From assembly GCA_026398615.1 (NCBI GenBank), contig JAPLSN010000031.1, forward strand, positions 1-64,000: a DNA stretch of 64,000 bases, given 5' to 3'. Shown here piece by piece: positions 22,008 to 30,701 of the stretch. The translations under genes and the position numbers were made by a program. A model generated the notes under the pieces. The model was given only the letters and a program-made list of their open reading frames with translations. It was not told where the DNA came from and searched no databases. Numbering within the stretch: position 1 is the first letter of the stretch; each line of letters starts with the position of its first letter. This DNA is from Spirochaetota bacterium (lineage in GTDB: Bacteria; Spirochaetota; Spirochaetia; Treponematales; UBA12059).

Positions 22008-22757
22008 TCAACCCTTGTCCACGAAGAAGCGGCCGCGTCCCAGGCGCCTGGCTTGCACGATCGCCCTGCGCGCCCGCTCCAGAACCTTTTCACCGTCCCG
22101 GGGACTTCCCGAAGCTCCGCCCACGGCGCCGCTTATCCACACGGTCTGCGACGACAGCTCGACGGGCCTGCAGATCATCTCGACCATCTGGCCGGCGCGC
22201 TCTTCCGCCAGTTCGGTGGCGCGAGAGGGCACCACGGTCGCTATTGCGGCGAACTCGTCGGTGCCGGTGCGCGCCGCGATGCCATCCCCTCCGGCAAACA
22301 CCGACACGCGCTTGGCCACTTCGATGAGCACGGCGTCGGCGATCGTCGTGCCGTATCGTTTTTCCAGCTGGGGGTAATCGTCCAGGTCGGCGGTCAAAAC
22401 GATGATGCCCCTGCCGTCCTCCATCATGCGGCCCGCTTTTTCGGAGAGCCATGCCGACAAGCCGTTCGCGTTGGCAAGTCCCGTGAGGGCGTCCAGCCTG
22501 TCCGGCGGAATCGTTTTTGGCTCCCCGGAACCAGTCGCTGATGCCGCCGGTGCCGAATGGGCGTTTCCGATGGCGATTCCCCCCAGTCGGACGATCACCG
22601 CCAGGAACGCAGCGGCGGCGATCGCCGCGACGGCTCCGCCCGGCGGGCCGAAGAAGGCATATCCCAGGATTCCCAGAACGGCAGCCGCGAAGCCGGCGGC
22701 AGCGCCTGTCGACATGGACCGGACGGTGCCGTCCCCGAAATGCGGCAGTGCTTTCAT
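22008..22757 (-). CDS. GGDEF-domain protein with degenerate GTDEF motif
   Basis: 249 residues. Two membrane segments (about 15-55, rich in Ala/Gly) precede a GGDEF domain (about 85-249) with DALTGLANANGL, LTADLDDYPQLEKRYG and RTGTDEFAAI. The signature is GTDEF instead of GG[DE]EF; the second glycine contacts substrate, so diguanylate cyclase activity is doubtful, although the Asp of the DLDDY metal site remains. No RxxD inhibitory site is evident. ATG 22757 lies 6 nt after a GATAAT box with no ribosome site, again suggesting leaderless expression. It is divergent to the first member (A) of the paralogue cluster and may act with it. Confidence 0.82.
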   Translation of the reverse strand: MKALPHFGDGTVRSMSTGAAAGFAAAVLGILGYAFFGPPGGAVAAIAAAAFLAVIVRLGGIAIGNAHSAPAASATGSGEPKTIPPDRLDALTGLANANGLSAWLSEKAGRMMEDGRGIIVLTADLDDYPQLEKRYGTTIADAVLIEVAKRVSVFAGGDGIAARTGTDEFAAIATVVPSRATELAEERAGQMVEMICRPVELSSQTVWISGAVGGASGSPRDGEKVLERARRAIVQARRLGRGRFFVDKG

Positions 22758-22822
22758 GATGCGATTATCGGCAGGACCCGCTTCCGGTTCCACGACGATC
22801 GCTGCCCGCGACGGATCGCATG

Positions 22823-22851
22823 TTGCGCTGCGGCGGCGAGAATGCGATACT
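22823..22851 (+). promoter_or_regulatory. Promoter of paralogue A
   Basis: -35 TTGCGC (22823-22828), 17-bp spacer, -10 GATACT (22846-22851), followed 7 nt later by ATG 22859. Confidence 0.5.
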
Positions 22852-22858
22852 CCATGGC

Positions 22859-23917
22859 ATGGAGCAGTCATACCTGCCGCTCATTCCCGACCCCGTTCCT
22901 GCCGATAACCAGAGCAGGTCACGGGACATGACGAAAAAGACGGGATTCGCCGTATCGGACGCAGACAGGCGCCTCATCCGCGACAACGCGCACTACATCC
23001 GCGAAGCGCTGTTCTCCTGCGTCACCGAGACCCAGGTCGAATGCTCCGTGGGTTTCGCGCGTTGCCTGTCGCGCGCCGGCATAAATGCGGAGAATTACTG
23101 GCTGTTCCTGCGCCTCGTCATGACGAACAACCCCTGGGTGATAGACGAACTCCTGCACGACCGCGAACCCCGGCTCCTGTTCTCCACCATCCTGCCCAAC
23201 GAGGAACTCGTGGAGACCTCGTTCCAGGCCCTTTTTTCGCGCCATCCCGAAGAGATATATCCCAAGGCGCTGGAAGCGCTCCTCGGCGTCGTGGAGAACG
23301 CGTATTTCGATCCCGACGACGGCTTCCGCCTGCGCAGGCTGTCGATCATGGACATCAACGCCCTGGGCAAATTCCTCCTCAAGGCCGAGCCGCAGGACCA
23401 CCCCGTCAACTGCCTGATCCTGGATATCCTGGACAGGCTCACCCACCTGGGCGAGTATTTCCAGGAGCCGGACAAGTCCGTGCTGTCCAAGCACGCATTC
23501 AACGTACGCTTCGCGTACTTCGACACGACCATGAACATGGTGGACGCCATCCCGCATCCGCTCCTGGTGCGCGTACCGGACGCGAACCTGGCGGGTCCCG
23601 GGGATGATTTCGCCGACCTGGTGGCCAAGCGCCGTCTGCGCAGCCGGGACGAGCGCGGCAGGTTCGTTCGTGAATCCGAAGCCCGGGCGGCGCGACGCGT
23701 GGAGGACGAATCGAAGGCAGGCCGCGGAGAACCCGCCGAGCGCCAGGCTGCGCCCGCACCGGTCGTCGAACCGTTGACGCCGGCTGCCAGGTCTGTCGAG
23801 CAGGCCGGCAAGGCGGGGAAAGCGGCGAAGGGCGGCACAGCGAGCCCCGGGACCACGAACGGAGCCGGCAGGGCCGCTCCCCGGAAGCGTCGGCGCAAGC
23901 CTCCCCGGGATGCCTAG
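22859..23917 (+). CDS. Paralogue A of an uncharacterised spirochaete-type family
   Basis: 352 residues if the ATG 7 nt after a -10 box is used; a second ATG at 22928 (MTKKTGF) is possible. Residues about 45-255 are clearly related to the proteins at 26118, 26838 and 27771. Shared motifs are ECSVGFARCLSRAGINAENY, NPWVIDELL, EEIYPKALEALLGVVENAY, DINALGKFL and ILDILDRL. The fold looks all-helical and soluble with no catalytic signature. Unlike the others it has a 95-residue basic, Ala/Pro-rich C-terminal tail ending APRKRRRKPPRDA, which suggests nucleic-acid or membrane-surface contact. It is divergent to the GGDEF protein and followed by element R1 and the phosphatase gene. I do not know a function. 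Confidence 0.75.
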   Translation: MEQSYLPLIPDPVPADNQSRSRDMTKKTGFAVSDADRRLIRDNAHYIREALFSCVTETQVECSVGFARCLSRAGINAENYWLFLRLVMTNNPWVIDELLHDREPRLLFSTILPNEELVETSFQALFSRHPEEIYPKALEALLGVVENAYFDPDDGFRLRRLSIMDINALGKFLLKAEPQDHPVNCLILDILDRLTHLGEYFQEPDKSVLSKHAFNVRFAYFDTTMNMVDAIPHPLLVRVPDANLAGPGDDFADLVAKRRLRSRDERGRFVRESEARAARRVEDESKAGRGEPAERQAAPAPVVEPLTPAARSVEQAGKAGKAAKGGTASPGTTNGAGRAAPRKRRRKPPRDA

Positions 23918-23955
23918 CAGGGCGAAAAAAATGGCCGTGGAGCCGGTATCACCAG

Positions 23956-24047
23956 TACCTTGAATCTGCGATTGCCGGAAAACCGGATGGTTTTCAGGCG
24001 ATTGCCCGTCGGGCGGTTGAAAGGCCTCGGGTTTTTCGACGGCACTG
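23956..24047 (+). repeat. Element R1: hairpin-rich leader, copy 1
   Basis: Shares an ordered set of motifs with R2 (27614-27757). These are TACCTTGAATCT, an ATTGC-flanked hairpin (GAAAACC, loop GGAT, GGTTTTC at 23978-23995, extended by GATTGCC/GGCGATT with two GU pairs), and a second hairpin (GTTGAAA / TTTCGAC, 24016-24040). It lies between paralogue A and the phosphatase gene. The loops differ between copies while the stems are kept. It could be a cis-acting RNA, an attenuator or a dispersed REP-like repeat. Confidence 0.6.
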
Positions 24048-24096
24048 CCGGGAATGCCGGGTCCGCCCTTCGGGCGATTCGCTCGAAGGGGGCGGT

Positions 24097-25068
24097 ATGG
24101 CCAGGAAACTTCTCGTCGGGGATGACGGCATGCACGATAAATCATCAGCAACGCAATCATCCGATGCGCCGACAGGCATCAGCCTGGTTCGCAAGGCCAT
24201 GGAAATAGGCGAAAGGCTGCCGGGGCGCCCGCGCGATCCCAACGGCCTGCCCGGCGGCCTCATCGACCTGCCCGAGGGCCGCAGGCCCATCATCATCGGC
24301 GACCTGCACGCGGCCGTGTCCCACCTGGATTTCATCCTTTCGCACTGGACCAACAGGGCGGATATGGAATCCGGCAAGGCGTTCATCCTGTTCCTGGGCG
24401 ATTCCCTTCACGATGACCGCACCGGCTACATGCGCGAGATGGTGAATTCCCTGGCGATGCTCAACGAGGTGTTCCGGCTCATCGTGAAGCATCCCGGGCG
24501 GGTGTACTACCTGCGTGGCAATCACGACACCTTCGACGAGCGCCTGCGCAAGTCGGGCATCGCCCAGGGCGCGGAGTTCAGGAAGGCGCTGGTCGCGGCC
24601 GAAGGCGAGGAGTACGCGCTGGCGGTGGGCGACTGGTTCGAATCCCTGCCGTATTTCGCCATCGGGAACGGGTACGTGGTCACGCATGCCGGGCCGGTCC
24701 GCGGCGGCTGCGGCCGCGAGGAGCTCATCCATATCAGGCGCCGGCCGGATTATGCCATGCAGCTCATCTGGAACCGGGTGAACGAGTTCCACGGCAATCC
24801 CAGCCCGAAGGAGTACTGCGAGCTGGACATCAGGCGCACGCTGGATCTCCTTGACCTGCCTGAGGACACCCACTTCATCGTGGGCCACAATCCCATGTGG
24901 CACGACGGCGGTACTACCGGCCTGTGGCAGAACGTCATCGGCATCAGGAACCATCACATTATCTATTCCGGCTCCGGCAGTCTGGCGCCCTACTACACGC
25001 TCGATGGCGGTTCCCTGGTCGCCAGGATGTCCAAGCCCCAGGAAGCGGAGGTGTACTACTATGGATGA
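24097..25068 (+). CDS. PPP-type metallophosphoesterase (protein phosphatase-like)
   Basis: 323 residues. All core motifs of the PPP/calcineurin-like family are present in order: GDLHA (68-72), FLGDSLHDD, LRGNHD, VTHAG and VGHNP. They supply the Asp, His and Asn ligands of a two-metal site. LRGNHD and VTHAGP are closest to bacterial serine/threonine protein phosphatases. The likely role is removing phosphate from proteins in the cytoplasm. The stop overlaps the start of the kinase-like gene by 8 nt (ATGGATGA), so the two are translationally coupled. The start ATG 24097 has GGGGGCGG upstream; ATG 24130 is an alternative. It is preceded by element R1. Confidence 0.85.
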   Translation: MARKLLVGDDGMHDKSSATQSSDAPTGISLVRKAMEIGERLPGRPRDPNGLPGGLIDLPEGRRPIIIGDLHAAVSHLDFILSHWTNRADMESGKAFILFLGDSLHDDRTGYMREMVNSLAMLNEVFRLIVKHPGRVYYLRGNHDTFDERLRKSGIAQGAEFRKALVAAEGEEYALAVGDWFESLPYFAIGNGYVVTHAGPVRGGCGREELIHIRRRPDYAMQLIWNRVNEFHGNPSPKEYCELDIRRTLDLLDLPEDTHFIVGHNPMWHDGGTTGLWQNVIGIRNHHIIYSGSGSLAPYYTLDGGSLVARMSKPQEAEVYYYG

Positions 25069-25975
25069 ACGCGAACGCCTCGCCGCCGACATGGACGATC
25101 CCGAGCTGATTTCCTATTTCTACTTGGATAAACCGGCACGGGAATTGCTTGACACGCTGGATTCGCTCACGTTCTCCCTGGATCCCAAGCTGGACGACAT
25201 GCCGTTCAACGCGGCGGTGAAGGGTTACCAGGGCGCCACGGATAGCGCGGGTCATCCGTGGATCGTGAAACCCGCCGGTTCCAAGGACGAAATCGTCTAC
25301 CACCGCCTCTGCACGCTCGCGTACCTCGTCGACCATATGACCGGGACGCTCGCGGCGCCGACTTCCGTCGCCAGGATCGACGGCACCATGTACAGGGTCA
25401 CCAAGGTCGTGCGGCATTCGATCCAGATCAGCTCGTATTCCTACCTGGACCAGCCGTACATCGGCAGCCTGCGCGCGGACCTGGTCAACCGCTGGCTGTA
25501 TTTCGACGAGGACCGCAATCCCAACAATTACCTCGTGGTGCATAACCGGAAGGGCAGGCCTTTCGTCATCGCCATCGATTACGACAAGGCCGACCTCGCG
25601 TCGACCGTCATGAAGATCACCGGCGACCCGGAGAAGTTCGGCTGGTTCCGGAGCGAAAAAACCCGTTTCCTGACGCTTCTGCGGCCTTCCCATTTCGAGG
25701 GCATCTCGATCGACGTGTTCGACGCACGGCTCAAGGCGATATGCGGCATCCCTGCGGACGAACTGCGCGGGATTTCACGGGCCGTGCTCGATGGCTACGC
25801 CGACCATGCGTACGCCGATGCGGTGACGGACAACCTGCTCTCGCGCCGGGCCTACATCGACGGGTATTTCAGGCGGATGTTCAAATCAGCAGCGGAAACC
25901 GTAGATTCCCGCCACGATGGCGACTACGAGGCCTTCGGAGAGAGTTTCCGCAAGATGTACGGGGACAAGAACTGA
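25061..25975 (+). CDS. HipA/PI3K-like atypical kinase
   Basis: 304 residues. The features fit the atypical kinase fold shared by HipA and PI3/4-kinases: a lysine strand HPWIVKPAG (Lys70), a central LVNRWLYFDEDRNPNNYLV segment whose Asp and Asn would be catalytic and metal-binding, and a following FVIAIDYDKAD with the DFG-equivalent aspartate. No HipA N-terminal domain or HipB partner is present, so this is not a standard HipBA toxin module. It starts inside the phosphatase gene with GGAGGTG as ribosome site. The coupled pair suggests opposing phosphorylation of a common target, plausibly a paralogue A-D protein. The assignment rests on motifs only. Confidence 0.65.
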   Translation: MDERERLAADMDDPELISYFYLDKPARELLDTLDSLTFSLDPKLDDMPFNAAVKGYQGATDSAGHPWIVKPAGSKDEIVYHRLCTLAYLVDHMTGTLAAPTSVARIDGTMYRVTKVVRHSIQISSYSYLDQPYIGSLRADLVNRWLYFDEDRNPNNYLVVHNRKGRPFVIAIDYDKADLASTVMKITGDPEKFGWFRSEKTRFLTLLRPSHFEGISIDVFDARLKAICGIPADELRGISRAVLDGYADHAYADAVTDNLLSRRAYIDGYFRRMFKSAAETVDSRHDGDYEAFGESFRKMYGDKN

Positions 25976-26020
25976 ACGATGCGGTTCCGGGGCGAGTTCC
26001 GGCAGTCCTTCCACATGGTT

Positions 26021-26069
26021 TTTTTTCGAAAAAAGGAAGTTTGACAAATGGTTCGGGCGGAACTACACT
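26021..26069 (+). promoter_or_regulatory. Promoter of paralogues B and C
   Basis: -35 TTGACA (26041-26046), 17-bp spacer, -10 TACACT (26064-26069), predicting a start near 26076. Just upstream is a TTTTTT-CG-AAAAAA palindrome (26021-26034) inside CTTCC/GGAAG arms, which could terminate the kinase transcript or act as an UP-type element. Confidence 0.75.
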
Positions 26070-26117
26070 TTTCAATAGAATTCGGCGCGATTCGCAGTTT
26101 CATACGCGGAGGTCACG

Positions 26118-26816
26118 ATGGACAAACAAACTGAGAAGGTGATCGAGAGGACCTGGTCGAAAGAGACCATCATGCAGGTCGAACTCGGCATTCTCCAGAA
26201 CATGCTCGGGTGTCGCACTGAAGAGGCTGTGGAAGCATCCGTCAGCTTCGCCCGTTTCCTCAGCATCTCGGGGTTGAACAACGACAACTACCCGCTGTTC
26301 CTCAAGCTCCTCGAGGTGGAAAACCACTGGGTCATCGACACGATGGTCGCGGCGAAGGATCCGTTCCTTCTCATCAGCCCCATCCAGTCGAACAGCTATC
26401 TCCTGTACACCGCCTTCAAGCTCCTCACCAAGTGGCATCCGGGAGGCATCTACCCGGTCACCCTGTCCATCGTGCTCGGGGTGCTGCAGGCCGCATACGC
26501 CTCGCCCAAGGACGGGTACAAGATCTTTTCCGTGTCCATCAACGACGTCAACAACCTGGGCAAGCACCTGAACAAGGAAAACGGACAGGACGATCCGAAC
26601 AACCGCTGCATCCTGGACATCCTCGACCGCCTGGGCTCCCTGGCCGGCACGTCGGACAACCCTGAAAAGGAGCAGATGTCCCGGCAGGCCAACAGCATCC
26701 GGACCTTCTTCTTCGACAAGCGCAAGAAGATGGAGGACGTGATCCCGCAGGTCCTCCTCGTCAAGTCGGATTATGTCGCCAAGGAAACGGCGCCCCGACA
26801 GGTTTTCGTCGACTGA
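26118..26816 (+). CDS. Paralogue B of the uncharacterised family
   Basis: 232 residues with GGAGG upstream. It consists of the family domain alone: MLGCRTEEAVEASVSFARFL, NYPLFLKLLEVENHWVID, GIYPVTLSIVLGVLQAAY, INDVNNLGKHLNKEN, CILDILDRLGSL and a FFFDKRKKMEDVIPQVLLVK end. Predicted mostly helical, cytoplasmic, without signal peptide or membrane span. The invariant Asn/Asp/Tyr residues (NDNY, WVID, DGYK, DVNNLGKHL) suggest a ligand- or protein-binding surface. First gene of a strong promoter; paralogue C follows after 21 bp. Function unknown; likely a structural or signalling component. Confidence 0.8.
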   Translation: MDKQTEKVIERTWSKETIMQVELGILQNMLGCRTEEAVEASVSFARFLSISGLNNDNYPLFLKLLEVENHWVIDTMVAAKDPFLLISPIQSNSYLLYTAFKLLTKWHPGGIYPVTLSIVLGVLQAAYASPKDGYKIFSVSINDVNNLGKHLNKENGQDDPNNRCILDILDRLGSLAGTSDNPEKEQMSRQANSIRTFFFDKRKKMEDVIPQVLLVKSDYVAKETAPRQVFVD

Positions 26817-26837
26817 AGCCGGTAAAGGAGCGTTGAC

Positions 26838-27551
26838 ATGAAAGAACTCTTCGAGAAGAAACAGGACTGGAACGACGTGGAAGTCGCCGACATCGAATAC
26901 AACATGCTCAAGGGCGTGATGGGTACGCGCACGGAAGAGGCGGTGGAAGCCGCCATGACCTACGCGAGCTACCTCAACTTCACGGGGATCACGAACGGCA
27001 ACTACCCCGTGTTCCTCAAGGTGCTCATGACGAGGAACCACAACGTCATCGACGCGCTCCTCGGAACGCGCGACCCGTTCCTGTTCATGAGTTCCATACA
27101 GCCCAACTATTTCATCGTTTCCACCTGCTTCACCATCCTGGCCAAGTACCGCAAGGGAGAAATCTATCCCAAGACCCTGGGCATCATCCTGGGCGTGTTC
27201 CAGGCCACGTACAATTCGCCGCTCGACGGGTACAAGATCTATCCGGTGTCGGTAGCCGACGTGAACAGCCTCGGGAAGCACCTGAACGAGGACAAGGGGC
27301 AGGATGACCTCCTGAACCGCTCCATCCTGGACATACTGGACAAGATCTCCTCGCTGGAAGGCCAGAACGTGAACGAGGACATGGAAGACCTGGCGGTGCA
27401 CGCGCACAATATCCGCAACAACTTCTTTGACTCCACCAAGCGCCTCGTGGACGTCATACCCGAAGTGCTGCTGCGCATAGAACCGAACATGGACAAGGAC
27501 GTCCTGCCTCGCAAGCGCATCCCGGTAGCGGAAGCCGCCGCGGCCAAGTAA
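26838..27551 (+). CDS. Paralogue C of the uncharacterised family
   Basis: 237 residues, closest to B: MGTRTEEAVEAAMTYASYL, NYPVFLKVLMTRNHNVID, EIYPKTLGIILGVFQATY, VADVNSLGKHLNEDKG, SILDILDKISSLEG and FFDSTKRLVDVIPEVLLR. AGGAGCG lies ahead of the ATG. The last 20 residues are Ala-rich and basic (LPRKRIPVAEAAAAK). It is co-transcribed with B and ends in a clear terminator. B and C probably arose by tandem duplication; keeping both suggests a hetero-oligomer or distinct partners. No known domain recognised. Confidence 0.8.
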   Translation: MKELFEKKQDWNDVEVADIEYNMLKGVMGTRTEEAVEAAMTYASYLNFTGITNGNYPVFLKVLMTRNHNVIDALLGTRDPFLFMSSIQPNYFIVSTCFTILAKYRKGEIYPKTLGIILGVFQATYNSPLDGYKIYPVSVADVNSLGKHLNEDKGQDDLLNRSILDILDKISSLEGQNVNEDMEDLAVHAHNIRNNFFDSTKRLVDVIPEVLLRIEPNMDKDVLPRKRIPVAEAAAAK

Positions 27552-27564
27552 GGCTATGGGAAAG

Positions 27565-27600
27565 GGCGCCCTTCCTCCTGCAGGCGGGGCGCCATTTTTT
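27565..27600 (+). terminator. Rho-independent terminator after paralogue C
   Basis: Stem GGCGCCC (27565-27571) / GGGCGCC (27587-27593), 15-nt loop, then A and six T (27595-27600), beginning 13 bp after the stop of C. Confidence 0.85.
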
Positions 27601-27613
27601 AGCTGATGAAACC

Positions 27614-27757
27614 TACCTTGAATCTTGCGACATGCCAGAGCATGTCGCGTTACTATCGTTGGTCTCAGTATATGTTGCAATTGCGCAGAAAACCGCAAGG
27701 TTTTCTAGGAATTGCAGAGCGGGTTATTGAAAAGCCCCAAGTTTTTCAATAAGCTGC
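27614..27757 (+). repeat. Element R2: hairpin-rich leader, copy 2
   Basis: Carries the R1 motif order with an insertion of about 50 nt. After TACCTTGAATCT comes a perfect 9-bp hairpin with a CAGA loop (27627-27648). Then an 8-bp hairpin AGAAAACC-GCAA-GGTTTTCT (27687-27706) flanked by CAATT/AATTG, then a 10-bp hairpin TTATTGAAAA / TTTTCAATAA (27724-27752). The last hairpin ends 8 nt before the AGGAGG ribosome site of paralogue D, so it could modulate translation. Confidence 0.65.
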
Positions 27758-27770
27758 CCAGGAGGTAAGC

Positions 27771-28472
27771 ATGCTCGGGCAACCGTGGCCGATGTGGTCT
27801 GAAAACGAAATAGACGCGCTCAAACTCGGATATCTCAACGATATCCTGGAATGCCGGGAAGGCTACGGAGCTTTCGCGGCGGTGGCGTTCGCCCATTACC
27901 TGGCGAACAAGGTCGGGATAAATTCCGACAACTATCCCATGTATTTCCGCCTGCTCGAATCGGGCAACCGCTGGGTGGTGGATACCCTCGTGGGCAGCAA
28001 GGAACCTTCGAAGCTGTTCGGCAGCATCCAGCCGAATACCTTCATGCTCAAGGAATGCTTCGCCATGTTGACCGCGTGGAAACCCGGTGAAGTTTACCCG
28101 AAAAGCCTGGAAGTGATGTACGGTCTCCTGACCCTGTGCTACGAGATACCGGAAGAAGGGTATCGCCTGTATCCGCTCACGGTGAACGACGTGAACAACC
28201 TGGGCAAGCACCTGGATAAGACCAGGGACCAGATGGAACCGCTCAACCGGATCGTGCTTTCCGTGCTGGACAGGGTAGCCGGGCTCATCGAGCCGCAGAA
28301 ACCGCTTCCCGCGCGCGAAGTGCAAGACGTGGCCCTGCAGGCGAACAACATCCGCGGCAAGTTCCTGGACATGACCAAGCGCATGAACGAGTCCATTCCG
28401 GACATCCTGCTGGTGCGTGGCGACTACAAGACCAGTGAAGTGAAGCCGGACGTTCCCAAGCTCGATATATAA
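27771..28472 (+). CDS. Paralogue D of the uncharacterised family
   Basis: 233 residues, more diverged. It keeps ECREGYGAFAAVAFAHYLAN, NYPMYFRLLESGNRWVVD, EVYPKSLEVMYGLLTLCY, VNDVNNLGKHLDKTRD, VLSVLDRVAGL and KFLDMTKRMNESIPDILLV. It has a near-ideal AGGAGG ribosome site and its own structured leader (R2), so expression is separate from B and C. The start MLGQPWPMWSENEIDAL differs from the other members. Followed after 141 bp by the pseudokinase gene; a GC-rich inverted repeat (GGGCGGG / CCCGCCC, about 28486-28527) lies between. Function unknown. Confidence 0.8.
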   Translation: MLGQPWPMWSENEIDALKLGYLNDILECREGYGAFAAVAFAHYLANKVGINSDNYPMYFRLLESGNRWVVDTLVGSKEPSKLFGSIQPNTFMLKECFAMLTAWKPGEVYPKSLEVMYGLLTLCYEIPEEGYRLYPLTVNDVNNLGKHLDKTRDQMEPLNRIVLSVLDRVAGLIEPQKPLPAREVQDVALQANNIRGKFLDMTKRMNESIPDILLVRGDYKTSEVKPDVPKLDI

Positions 28473-28613: not shown

Positions 28614-30701
28614 ATGCTGTGCGCTCATTCGATCGTCAACAACTGCTATATTCTCCAGGAAAAAAAGGGCGAAGACGCGTTCAGCGAAATCTGGCGGGCC
28701 AGCGCCATGTTTTCCGCCACGAATTTCCTGCTCCGCTTCCTGAAACCGGGTCTTCCCGAGGAATCCATGACCGCCCTGCACGAATTGGCGCTCAACGCGT
28801 ACGGCGTTCGCCATGGCGCCGTCATCGACGTGGTGGAACTGGAACGCTACGACGGGCGCATGTTCATTTCATCCGAATACGACGGCCAGACCCGCCTGCG
28901 CGACATCCACGATTCGCAAGCCACCTTTCCCCTGGAACACATCTGCAGGTTCATCCTCGAACTGGCGCAGGGCCTGGACACGTTTCACCAGCGCGGCTTC
29001 GTGTACGGCACGCTGAACGCGGAAAGCGTCTATGTATCGAAGGAAGCGGGCGTCATCACCGAGCTGCGGTTCCTGAAACCGGGCTATGCACCTCTCGTCG
29101 GGCTTCTCCCGAGGGACGATCCCGAATCGATCCTGGAGAACCAGGGTTACCTGGCTCCCGAGCTCAAGGGCGCTTCCGGGCATCCTGTCGACCCGCGGGC
29201 CGACCTGTATTCCCTGGGCGTGCACCTGTACCGTTTCATTACCGGACTCATGCCATTCAGGGGCCAATCAGCGCTTCGCGCCCTGGACAAGGCGGTATCG
29301 GTGCTGCATGTGTCGAACGCGCTGGCGCGCCGCGGCGTGCCGCCCGAGCTGATGCGCATGACGGTGGCCTGCCTGCGCAAGAATCCCCGACAGCGCTATC
29401 CCTCCGTGGTGGAGCTGGTGCGCGACCTGAAGGCGTTCATGGACGGGCGCCGCATGGATTCCATCCGCGCGGGCGCCACCGATCCGCTCGCGTACCTGGA
29501 AGGCCTCAATAAAAGGAGGGAACGCCCGGGTGCGGGGCACGTCGTCCGTACGCTCGACATGGCGGAATACTTCCGCGCCCTGTCGGAAGGTCCGCGCGAA
29601 CGCGCGGGGACGCCGATCTCGGGTCGCTTCCCGCCGGAGAACGCGGTTTCCGGCGGCAATGCCTTCGCCGGCTATGCCGAACTGGAAGAACTGGAATCCG
29701 CGGGTCCGGAGGACGACGAAAGCCTGTCCGCCGATGATTACGTGGCGATGAGCATGGAAACCTGCTCCGGCGAACCGCAGGTCGAGGCGAAACCCGACAC
29801 GGCGCCAATGCCCGCCGGCGTCGTCCCGGAGCCTCCTGGATTTCGGCATGGCGATTACTGGAGCCAGGTGTCCACCGGCTTGGATGCAGGCGCAAGCGTG
29901 AACGGAAAGCGCCCGCCCGGACCGGAACGGGAAACCGTGGCGGCGACAGCTGCCGGCGCACCGGTGGATGCCCCGGTCATTGACGGAAGTACCGCTGTCC
30001 GCCAAGCCGGACGGGACATCGCCGGCGGAACGGGTCCAGCCGCCATCCGGAGAAAACCGTCCGCCGCGGCCGCAAACAAGGAATCCGGTGAAACCGAAGA
30101 CGCAGGCGAAGGCCTTCGCGCTCCCGGCGTTTCGTGGTGTCATCGATCGGTACGCGCCGATACGGTGGCGACGGTTCTCCTGCAGGCGTTCAAATCGGCG
30201 GCCAGGGGCGAAGGTACCTTCCGTTTCCTGGAGCATCCATCGGATCCGCATACGCGTTCCACCCTGGAGCGGGTGTTCGCGCTCATGCAGACCCAGGGAA
30301 CATTGGTCGATGTCGCGCCGAAGGGAGGGGCCGCGGAGGATTTTCTCCGGGCGCTGAAGTCCGCTCTGGAAGCTGCCGTAGCTTCCCGGCATCCGCGCGA
30401 GCGGAGGCGATTTGCCGCGAAAGCCGACAAGGCGTACGCCGGCGCCGAAGCCGCCCTCTCGATGCCCGCCGATCGGTCTGCGGAGGCCCCGAAGCAAGAG
30501 GATGCATGCATTTCGGCCGCGGCCGCGGCGCTCGTGCGCCTCGGGACAGGAGCCAGGCCGGCCGCCGTCATCGTCCGCGACGCGAACGGCCTCGATGCGC
30601 GCGCCCTGGAGTACCTGGTCGCCGTCGCGGCCCTGGTCCCGGGGAAAGCCATGTGCGTGTTCGCGTTTTTCGAGGACGAAGCGCCGGTCTCCTGGCGCTG
30701 A
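28614..30701 (+). CDS. Serine/threonine pseudokinase fused to a degenerate AAA-type domain
   Basis: 695 residues, no signal or membrane span. Residues 10-275 have the protein-kinase fold but lack catalytic residues. The HRDLKPxN loop reads FVYGTLNAES (129-138, catalytic Asp replaced by Thr), DFG is replaced by LKPG (154-157), and the glycine loop and VAIK lysine are eroded. Structural motifs YLAPEL (179) and DPRADLYSLGV (193-203) are intact. A disordered linker of about 230 residues follows. The last 190 residues resemble AAA_16 ATPases: RGEGTFRFLEHPSDPHTRST stands where a P-loop belongs, and AAVIVRDANGLDARALEYL is Walker-B-like. It is probably a scaffold or receptor for the upstream kinase/phosphatase pair. 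Only a weak GGAAAC ribosome site is seen. Confidence 0.72.
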   Translation: MLCAHSIVNNCYILQEKKGEDAFSEIWRASAMFSATNFLLRFLKPGLPEESMTALHELALNAYGVRHGAVIDVVELERYDGRMFISSEYDGQTRLRDIHDSQATFPLEHICRFILELAQGLDTFHQRGFVYGTLNAESVYVSKEAGVITELRFLKPGYAPLVGLLPRDDPESILENQGYLAPELKGASGHPVDPRADLYSLGVHLYRFITGLMPFRGQSALRALDKAVSVLHVSNALARRGVPPELMRMTVACLRKNPRQRYPSVVELVRDLKAFMDGRRMDSIRAGATDPLAYLEGLNKRRERPGAGHVVRTLDMAEYFRALSEGPRERAGTPISGRFPPENAVSGGNAFAGYAELEELESAGPEDDESLSADDYVAMSMETCSGEPQVEAKPDTAPMPAGVVPEPPGFRHGDYWSQVSTGLDAGASVNGKRPPGPERETVAATAAGAPVDAPVIDGSTAVRQAGRDIAGGTGPAAIRRKPSAAAANKESGETEDAGEGLRAPGVSWCHRSVRADTVATVLLQAFKSAARGEGTFRFLEHPSDPHTRSTLERVFALMQTQGTLVDVAPKGGAAEDFLRALKSALEAAVASRHPRERRRFAAKADKAYAGAEAALSMPADRSAEAPKQEDACISAAAAALVRLGTGARPAAVIVRDANGLDARALEYLVAVAALVPGKAMCVFAFFEDEAPVSWR

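Follow-up and report, generated by a model that had tools for sequence, protein, structure and literature searches.

What might a bacterium do with a protein that joins two nucleotide-binding domains, both apparently without catalytic sites? The question is raised by PSK, a pseudokinase/pseudo-AAA fusion protein read from an ATG start in the window, i.e., the whole 64,000-nucleotide stretch of DNA analysed here (Table 1). Only a handful of bacterial pseudokinases have been assigned a function, according to the portion of PMC12599244 available to us, and a distant relative of PSK (locus L180) adds to the interest of the case by showing what looks like an intermediate state of the kinase half. 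The most likely reading of PSK is that of a conserved, doubly inactive pseudoenzyme made up of a Hanks-type pseudokinase, a disordered linker, and an AAA_16-like domain without a P-loop. The gene is present as a single copy within its own genome. Pfam found no GAF or PAS domain in PSK, and the most hydrophobic stretch of the protein (aa 668-686, mean 2.1) is part of its C-terminal domain.

Table 1. Features of PSK and of the neighbouring cluster genes, with positions in the window
Feature	Positions	Strand	Basis or remark
par1, helical, four-paralogue family, 365 aa, extended C-terminal tail	22820..23917	+	true start maybe further downstream
Calcineurin-like (PPP-type) phosphatase; GDLH, GNHD, HAGP motifs	24097..25068	+	Pfam Metallophos E 2.6e-11; motifs aligned over relatives
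Putative kinase, 304 aa; WIVKP, DEDRNPNNY, AIDYD motifs	25061..25975	+	
par2, armadillo-like model	26118..26816	+	84-93% identity in 11 syntenic loci
par3	26838..27551	+	82-90% identity in 11 syntenic loci
par4, directly upstream of PSK	27771..28472	+	67-84% identity in 11 syntenic loci
PSK, pseudokinase/pseudo-AAA fusion protein	28614..30701	+	695 aa
Pseudokinase domain, Hanks-kinase fold, aa 1-290	28614..29483	+	Pfam Pkinase E 3.4e-15; model; PknA match
FLLRF replacing VAIK (Lys to Arg, R41)	28725..28739	+	Lys absent in 12/12 orthologues
YGTLNAES (aa 131-138) replacing HRDxxPxN	29004..29027	+	catalytic Asp absent in 12/12 orthologues
LKPG (aa 154-157) replacing DFG	29073..29084	+	Asp absent in 12/12 orthologues; xPG kept in 11/12
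APE (E183) and alphaF DLYSLG (D197), retained	29154..29219	+	Glu and Asp kept in 12/12 orthologues
Conserved island after kinase domain, aa 280-325	29451..29588	+	invariant P291, Y319, F320
Disordered linker, aa 325-517	29586..30164	+	pLDDT <50 in model; dN/dS 0.47 over comparable part
C-terminal AAA_16-like domain, aa 515-695	30156..30698	+	hhalign vs AAA_16; low-confidence model
Lost P-loop site, GEGTFRFLEHPSDPHTRSTL	30207..30266	+	GxxxxGK[ST] absent in 11/11 C-termini
Walker-B-like strand RPAAVIVRDANGLD, Asp to Arg	30555..30596	+	hhalign alignment

A kinase fold without its catalytic residues

The kinase half of PSK is a pseudokinase. A sequence-only reading of this DNA had pointed to YGTLNAES at the place of the HRD catalytic loop and to LKPG at that of DFG, with the APE and DxxxxG helper motifs intact, and all four observations were borne out. 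The Pfam Pkinase match lies above the cut-off, and among solved sequences PknB kinases come closest, their alignment with PSK setting YGTLNAES opposite the HRD loop. As controls we used Hanks kinases from 26 of 81 loci found in database scans, picked for long unbroken matches and not for motifs; at the positions of PSK residues 41, 133, 138, and 155 these kinases read K, D, N, and D in every case (26/26), where PSK reads R, T, S, and K. The changed VAIK Lys (R41) is a further loss that the earlier list lacked. The alphaI Arg is intact (R261).

A structure model built from PSK and the control kinases has pLDDT values mostly >90 over aa 1-290, falling to approximately 61-81 around aa 151-190 and 211-230. 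The modelled kinase part superposes on PknA with a Z of 30.2 and an rmsd of 2.3 over 268 residues, and Stk1 and PknB match too. With a significant profile match and a predicted bilobal fold in agreement, PSK has a Hanks-type kinase fold. The active Hanks kinases PknA and PknB are its nearest solved folds (Z ~29-30), but unlike them PSK is without the catalytic Lys, the HRD Asp, the Asn, and the DFG Asp. Because the alignment behind the model consists of active kinases, the model is silent on the occupancy of the ATP pocket.

A search of 96 relatives with PSK gave matches in 39 genomes, from which the 12 best-matching genomes (E <=1.6e-26, the window's own included) were taken as the source of orthologues; the weaker rows were treated as other kinases. 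The 12 orthologues span 10 genera and three family groups. The VAIK Lys is absent from all 12 (Arg in 11, Gln in one), as are both the HRD Asp and the DFG Asp, and no replacement acid is conserved at either Asp position; none of the three residues expected of an active Hanks kinase is found in PSK or in any orthologue. Every one of the 12 retains the APE Glu, the alphaF Asp, and the alphaI Arg. Such a combination of lost catalytic residues and kept fold-supporting residues is the pattern of a fold retained for a purpose other than phosphotransfer, and by sequence and fold it marks a pseudokinase: the fold is kept, one or more of the canonical catalytic residues are lost, and the loss is conserved in orthologues. 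The losses pointed out in the sequence-only reading are therefore a conserved property, and an orthologue with intact HRD and DFG motifs, which would have meant a damaged allele here, was not found among the 12. The orthologue alignment contains 11 of the 12; L009, with a 100-base contig gap, was left out of it and included in the motif table.

In a tree of 84 kinase domains, L180 falls together with the 12 orthologues in a single group of 13 PSK rows (98), the deeper position of which rests on weak branches (58). The tree was built without L036, L043, L055, L073, and L107, which were too short or unclear, and without part of the kinase loci from the database scans. The L180 sequence, from the distant genome G164, reads HNDLNPRN with the HxD Asp still present; its VAIK Lys is replaced by Gln, and its DFG motif reads NFS. 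The same genome carries a second degenerate PSK-type copy (L263, G164:C429) with HNQINLKN and NFG. By their motifs, both copies look like intermediate states in the degeneration of the kinase half. Scans of genome collections for PSK orthologues returned first nothing and then generic kinases alone, and viral contigs scanned with the PSK alignment yielded two generic kinases and nothing else. Behind the kinase domain, the conserved island with invariant P291, Y319, and F320 is a candidate docking motif.

The C-terminal domain

The C-terminal region had been read as an AAA_16 layout with no P-loop. The absence of the P-loop held in 11/11 C-termini and the layout gained a profile match, but the Pfam score stayed below the cut-off and the model was of low confidence. 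For the profile comparison we set 11 C-termini (L117 included; L005 and L006, whose contigs end, excluded) against 24 of 27 AAA_16 domains from relatives, L227, L228, and L229 having been dropped since the stretch searched in each did not show the strict P-loop pattern. Hhalign joined the two profiles over 175 columns with a score of 40.6, a P of 2.8e-5, and a probability of 74. Decoy scores were no higher than 20.0 for 100 column shuffles, 14.6 and 15.1 for reversed profiles, and 12.3-15.9 for six other, unrelated families of the cluster. The match is colinear; it starts with the helix that precedes beta1 and ends with the strand that follows Walker B, and by this alignment PSK has an Arg at the first Walker B acid.

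Pfam AAA_16 (PF13191) matches PSK at aa 520-676 with an E of 0.26 and 12.2 bits against a gathering cut-off of 32.6, and the PSK C-terminus searched alone reaches 15.7 bits, again below that cut-off. The best match of any family member to AAA_16 has an E of 0.00044 (listed without a score), and AAA_16 is the sole domain family matched by more than one member (2/10).

On this profile evidence the C-terminal domain quite probably derives from AAA_16. The competing view is that it is some other alpha/beta domain, not AAA-derived, which would leave the kinase half as the only pseudoenzyme. This view draws on the fact that no Pfam match over the cut-off was seen for the domain, on a PDB profile search that gave no credible match, and on a model in which alternating helices and strands form an alpha/beta arrangement at low confidence (pLDDT mostly 40-86). 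We nevertheless find it doubtful, given a colinear AAA_16 match with a score twice that of any decoy and a family that alone was hit by more than one member. Structure prediction with superposition, proposed alongside the sequence-only reading as a check, bore out the kinase half through PknA; the fold searches covered that half, and the C-terminal fold gave no confident model.

The seven-gene cluster

PSK is the last gene of a conserved seven-gene cluster, the other six lying upstream on the same strand: the four paralogues par1-4 (each about 230 aa or longer), a phosphatase, and a putative kinase whose reading frame shares its first 8 bases with the end of the phosphatase gene. The order par2, par3, par4, PSK is constant in 11/11 syntenic loci, with PSK adjoining par4 in all of them, and all seven genes are present in 10 of the 11. 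The exception is L114, where the contig starts before par1 and par1 sits at the end of another contig of the same genome (L184). Across the syntenic loci the phosphatase and the kinase-like protein show 47-64% identity. The dN/dS values of par2 and par3 are 0.013-0.024. PSK itself, at approximately 22-46% identity across the whole alignment, is diverging much faster than the neighbouring genes, which would suit a loosely attached partner no less than a hub. No secretion genes were found by Pfam among the conserved neighbours. On the reverse strand of the window (22008-22871) there is also a GGDEF-domain protein whose motif reads GTDEF.

The putative kinase has no Pfam or PDB family match. Its DEDRNPNNY and ID motifs are invariant in 13/13 sequences, and a WIxK-type motif is present in nearly all. 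Against a HipA profile it scored 28.9, compared with at most 19.3 in 60 shuffles, the match having a probability of 5.9 and covering only the short stretch with these motifs, and HipA_2 (PF20613) was found in 0/58 relatives. We treat its designation as a putative HipA-like kinase as a lead. The par family has no Pfam or PADLOC match and no credible NCBIfam match, and a PDB profile search gave no credible match either. The par2 model (pLDDT 72) resembles armadillo repeats with a Z of 10.1 and a Foldseek E of 0.02 at best; since the guide to the structure tool places common helical arrangements at a Z of ~13, the armadillo likeness of the family is only suggestive. As strongly conserved helical paralogues beside a phosphatase and a putative kinase (window 22820-28472; L110-L120), par1-4 are possibly more interesting than PSK.

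Homologues of par2 occur in 18/96 relatives and in 7/198 genomes of a phylum sample, the genome of the window being included each time; the cluster thus has a patchy distribution. None was found in phage or plasmid records or in viral contigs. When 12 further par-bearing genomes were searched with a PSK profile (one of those searched, G022, being cut by a contig end), recognisable homologues appeared, among the matches listed, in G164 only, where L180 adjoins par1. Related par clusters elsewhere have par, phosphatase, and kinase-like genes and no detectable PSK; the module can therefore do without PSK, which is part of one version of it. Four variants (L175, L176, L178, and L182) are without PSK; they have several par copies, phosphatase and kinase-like genes that are oriented differently, and a membrane protein of LysM-like appearance (by eye). 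In L170 (G070), a par2-like pair lies beside a SpoIIE-type phosphatase, an anti-sigma-type ATPase, and a formylglycine-type protein, all assigned by eye.

Possible roles of PSK and its known counterparts

With catalytic losses in both halves that are kept in relatives, and with kinase-like, phosphatase, and adaptor-like neighbours, PSK probably has a scaffolding or regulatory function and not an enzymatic one. More specifically, the reading that we favour, with about an even chance of being right, is that PSK, without catalysis of its own, scaffolds or allosterically regulates a phosphorylation module that its own cluster encodes. In such a module, the HipA-like kinase and the PPP-type phosphatase, made from overlapping genes, would set the phosphorylation state of proteins, the four armadillo-like paralogues would form a conserved core or adaptor, and the pseudokinase and pseudo-AAA domains would keep these components together by binding to the kinase, the phosphatase, or the adaptors. 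The activity of the HipA-like protein, the physical interaction, and the scaffold role of PSK are what we infer here; the synteny makes binding or scaffolding by PSK, for which the sequence-only reading had suggested selection, plausible. Strict synteny also ties PSK to a few candidate partners (the apparent kinase, the phosphatase, and four adaptor-like proteins), and a pseudokinase role is thereby directly testable.

More tentatively still, and against the balance of our expectations, the cluster as a whole might be an undescribed bacterial phosphorylation machine, in which armadillo-like paralogues and a HipA-like kinase/PPP phosphatase pair are joined by a dead kinase and a dead ATPase serving as binding modules. 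If true, such a machine would be a bacterial counterpart of those eukaryotic complexes whose helical-repeat subunits and pseudokinases direct the work of a PPP phosphatase and a kinase.

An alternative to a purely non-catalytic role is that the pseudokinase still binds nucleotide or has acquired a new catalytic activity, as SelO and SidJ have, and works as a switch or an enzyme. Cases of that type are known (PMC12599244, in the portion available), and the recurrence of Arg at the VAIK position and of the DFG-position glycine, each in 11/12 orthologues, is in keeping with it. We consider it unlikely, however, as every one of the 12 orthologues has lost the three canonical residues together, with no conserved substitute acid at the HRD or DFG Asp positions, and SelO and SidJ, according to the same portion, keep at least the VAIK Lys, which PSK does not.

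Much less probable is an anti-phage defence system with the pseudokinase as a sensor or decoy. The patchy distribution would suit such a system, and PADLOC kinase models do match PSK, the PD-T4-6 model with an E of 1.4e-25. Those models, however, match the kinase fold generally, PADLOC gave no strong match for the rest of the cluster, and the par2 searches of phage and plasmid records came back empty. Nor are nearly frozen sequences, such as those of par2 and par3, known to be typical of defence genes. We rejected the PD-T4-6 identity for PSK as generic kinase likeness.

Between the two closest genomes bearing PSK (G013 and G016), dN/dS is 0.078 in the pseudokinase domain versus 0.47 in the comparable part of the linker. 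Judged by this one pair, the pseudokinase domain is under purifying selection. That PSK is a damaged gene heading for loss in this genome, as its missing motifs and fast-evolving linker might suggest, is barely credible and is refuted by the orthologues, with the same losses in 12/12, no internal stop inside the match in any of the 12 genomes, and the low dN/dS just given.

The closest known kind is found among the CP1 bacterial pseudokinases. COG3899 ATPases belong to the large AAA_16-type class. According to the portion of PMC12599244 available to us, CP1 pseudokinases carry a fused COG3899 predicted ATPase, with two examples reported from Leptospira, and about 40% of CP1 are pseudokinases; the kinase-ATPase fusion itself is thus already known. 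PSK resembles them in joining a kinase-like domain to what is probably the remnant of an AAA_16-type ATPase domain. It differs, as far as that portion describes them, in that its ATPase-like domain is itself without a P-loop, in its short length of 695 aa with no GAF or PAS domain by Pfam, in the loss of all three kinase motifs in 12/12 orthologues, and in its conserved seven-gene cluster. The PSK rows did not group with the kinase-AAA proteins L041 and L057 in our tree, which holds no labelled CP1 reference. Within a literature search whose scope left subscription journals mostly outside, we found no description of the PSK family or of the seven-gene cluster, nor, for such fusions, of P-loop loss together with total kinase-motif loss and a fixed seven-gene context.

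Two other pseudokinases are instructive, again as described in the portion of PMC12599244 at hand. EssB/YukC of type VII secretion, in which all three catalytic motifs are likewise degraded, is a scaffold and recruiter; it is a membrane protein of the secretion apparatus, whereas the conserved neighbours of PSK are phosphatase, kinase-like, and par genes. The MviN pseudokinase domain of Mycobacterium (ActPs3), also with fully degraded motifs, recruits a partner protein once phosphorylated by an active kinase. MviN is a peptidoglycan membrane protein and the ActPs3 have an activation-loop deletion; the candidate partners of PSK are encoded in its own cluster, and PSK would interact with them.

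Other degenerate kinase-like proteins were seen along the way. Two from relatives (L013 and L014) are without the HRD or DFG Asp (HCSLRPDH / LGLG) and have long C-termini. The genome of the window encodes a second kinase-like protein (L210, G000:C30:41360-41854) with HGN for HRD and the DFG Asp kept, whose kinase-like region sits behind what looks by eye like a DnaJ-like start.
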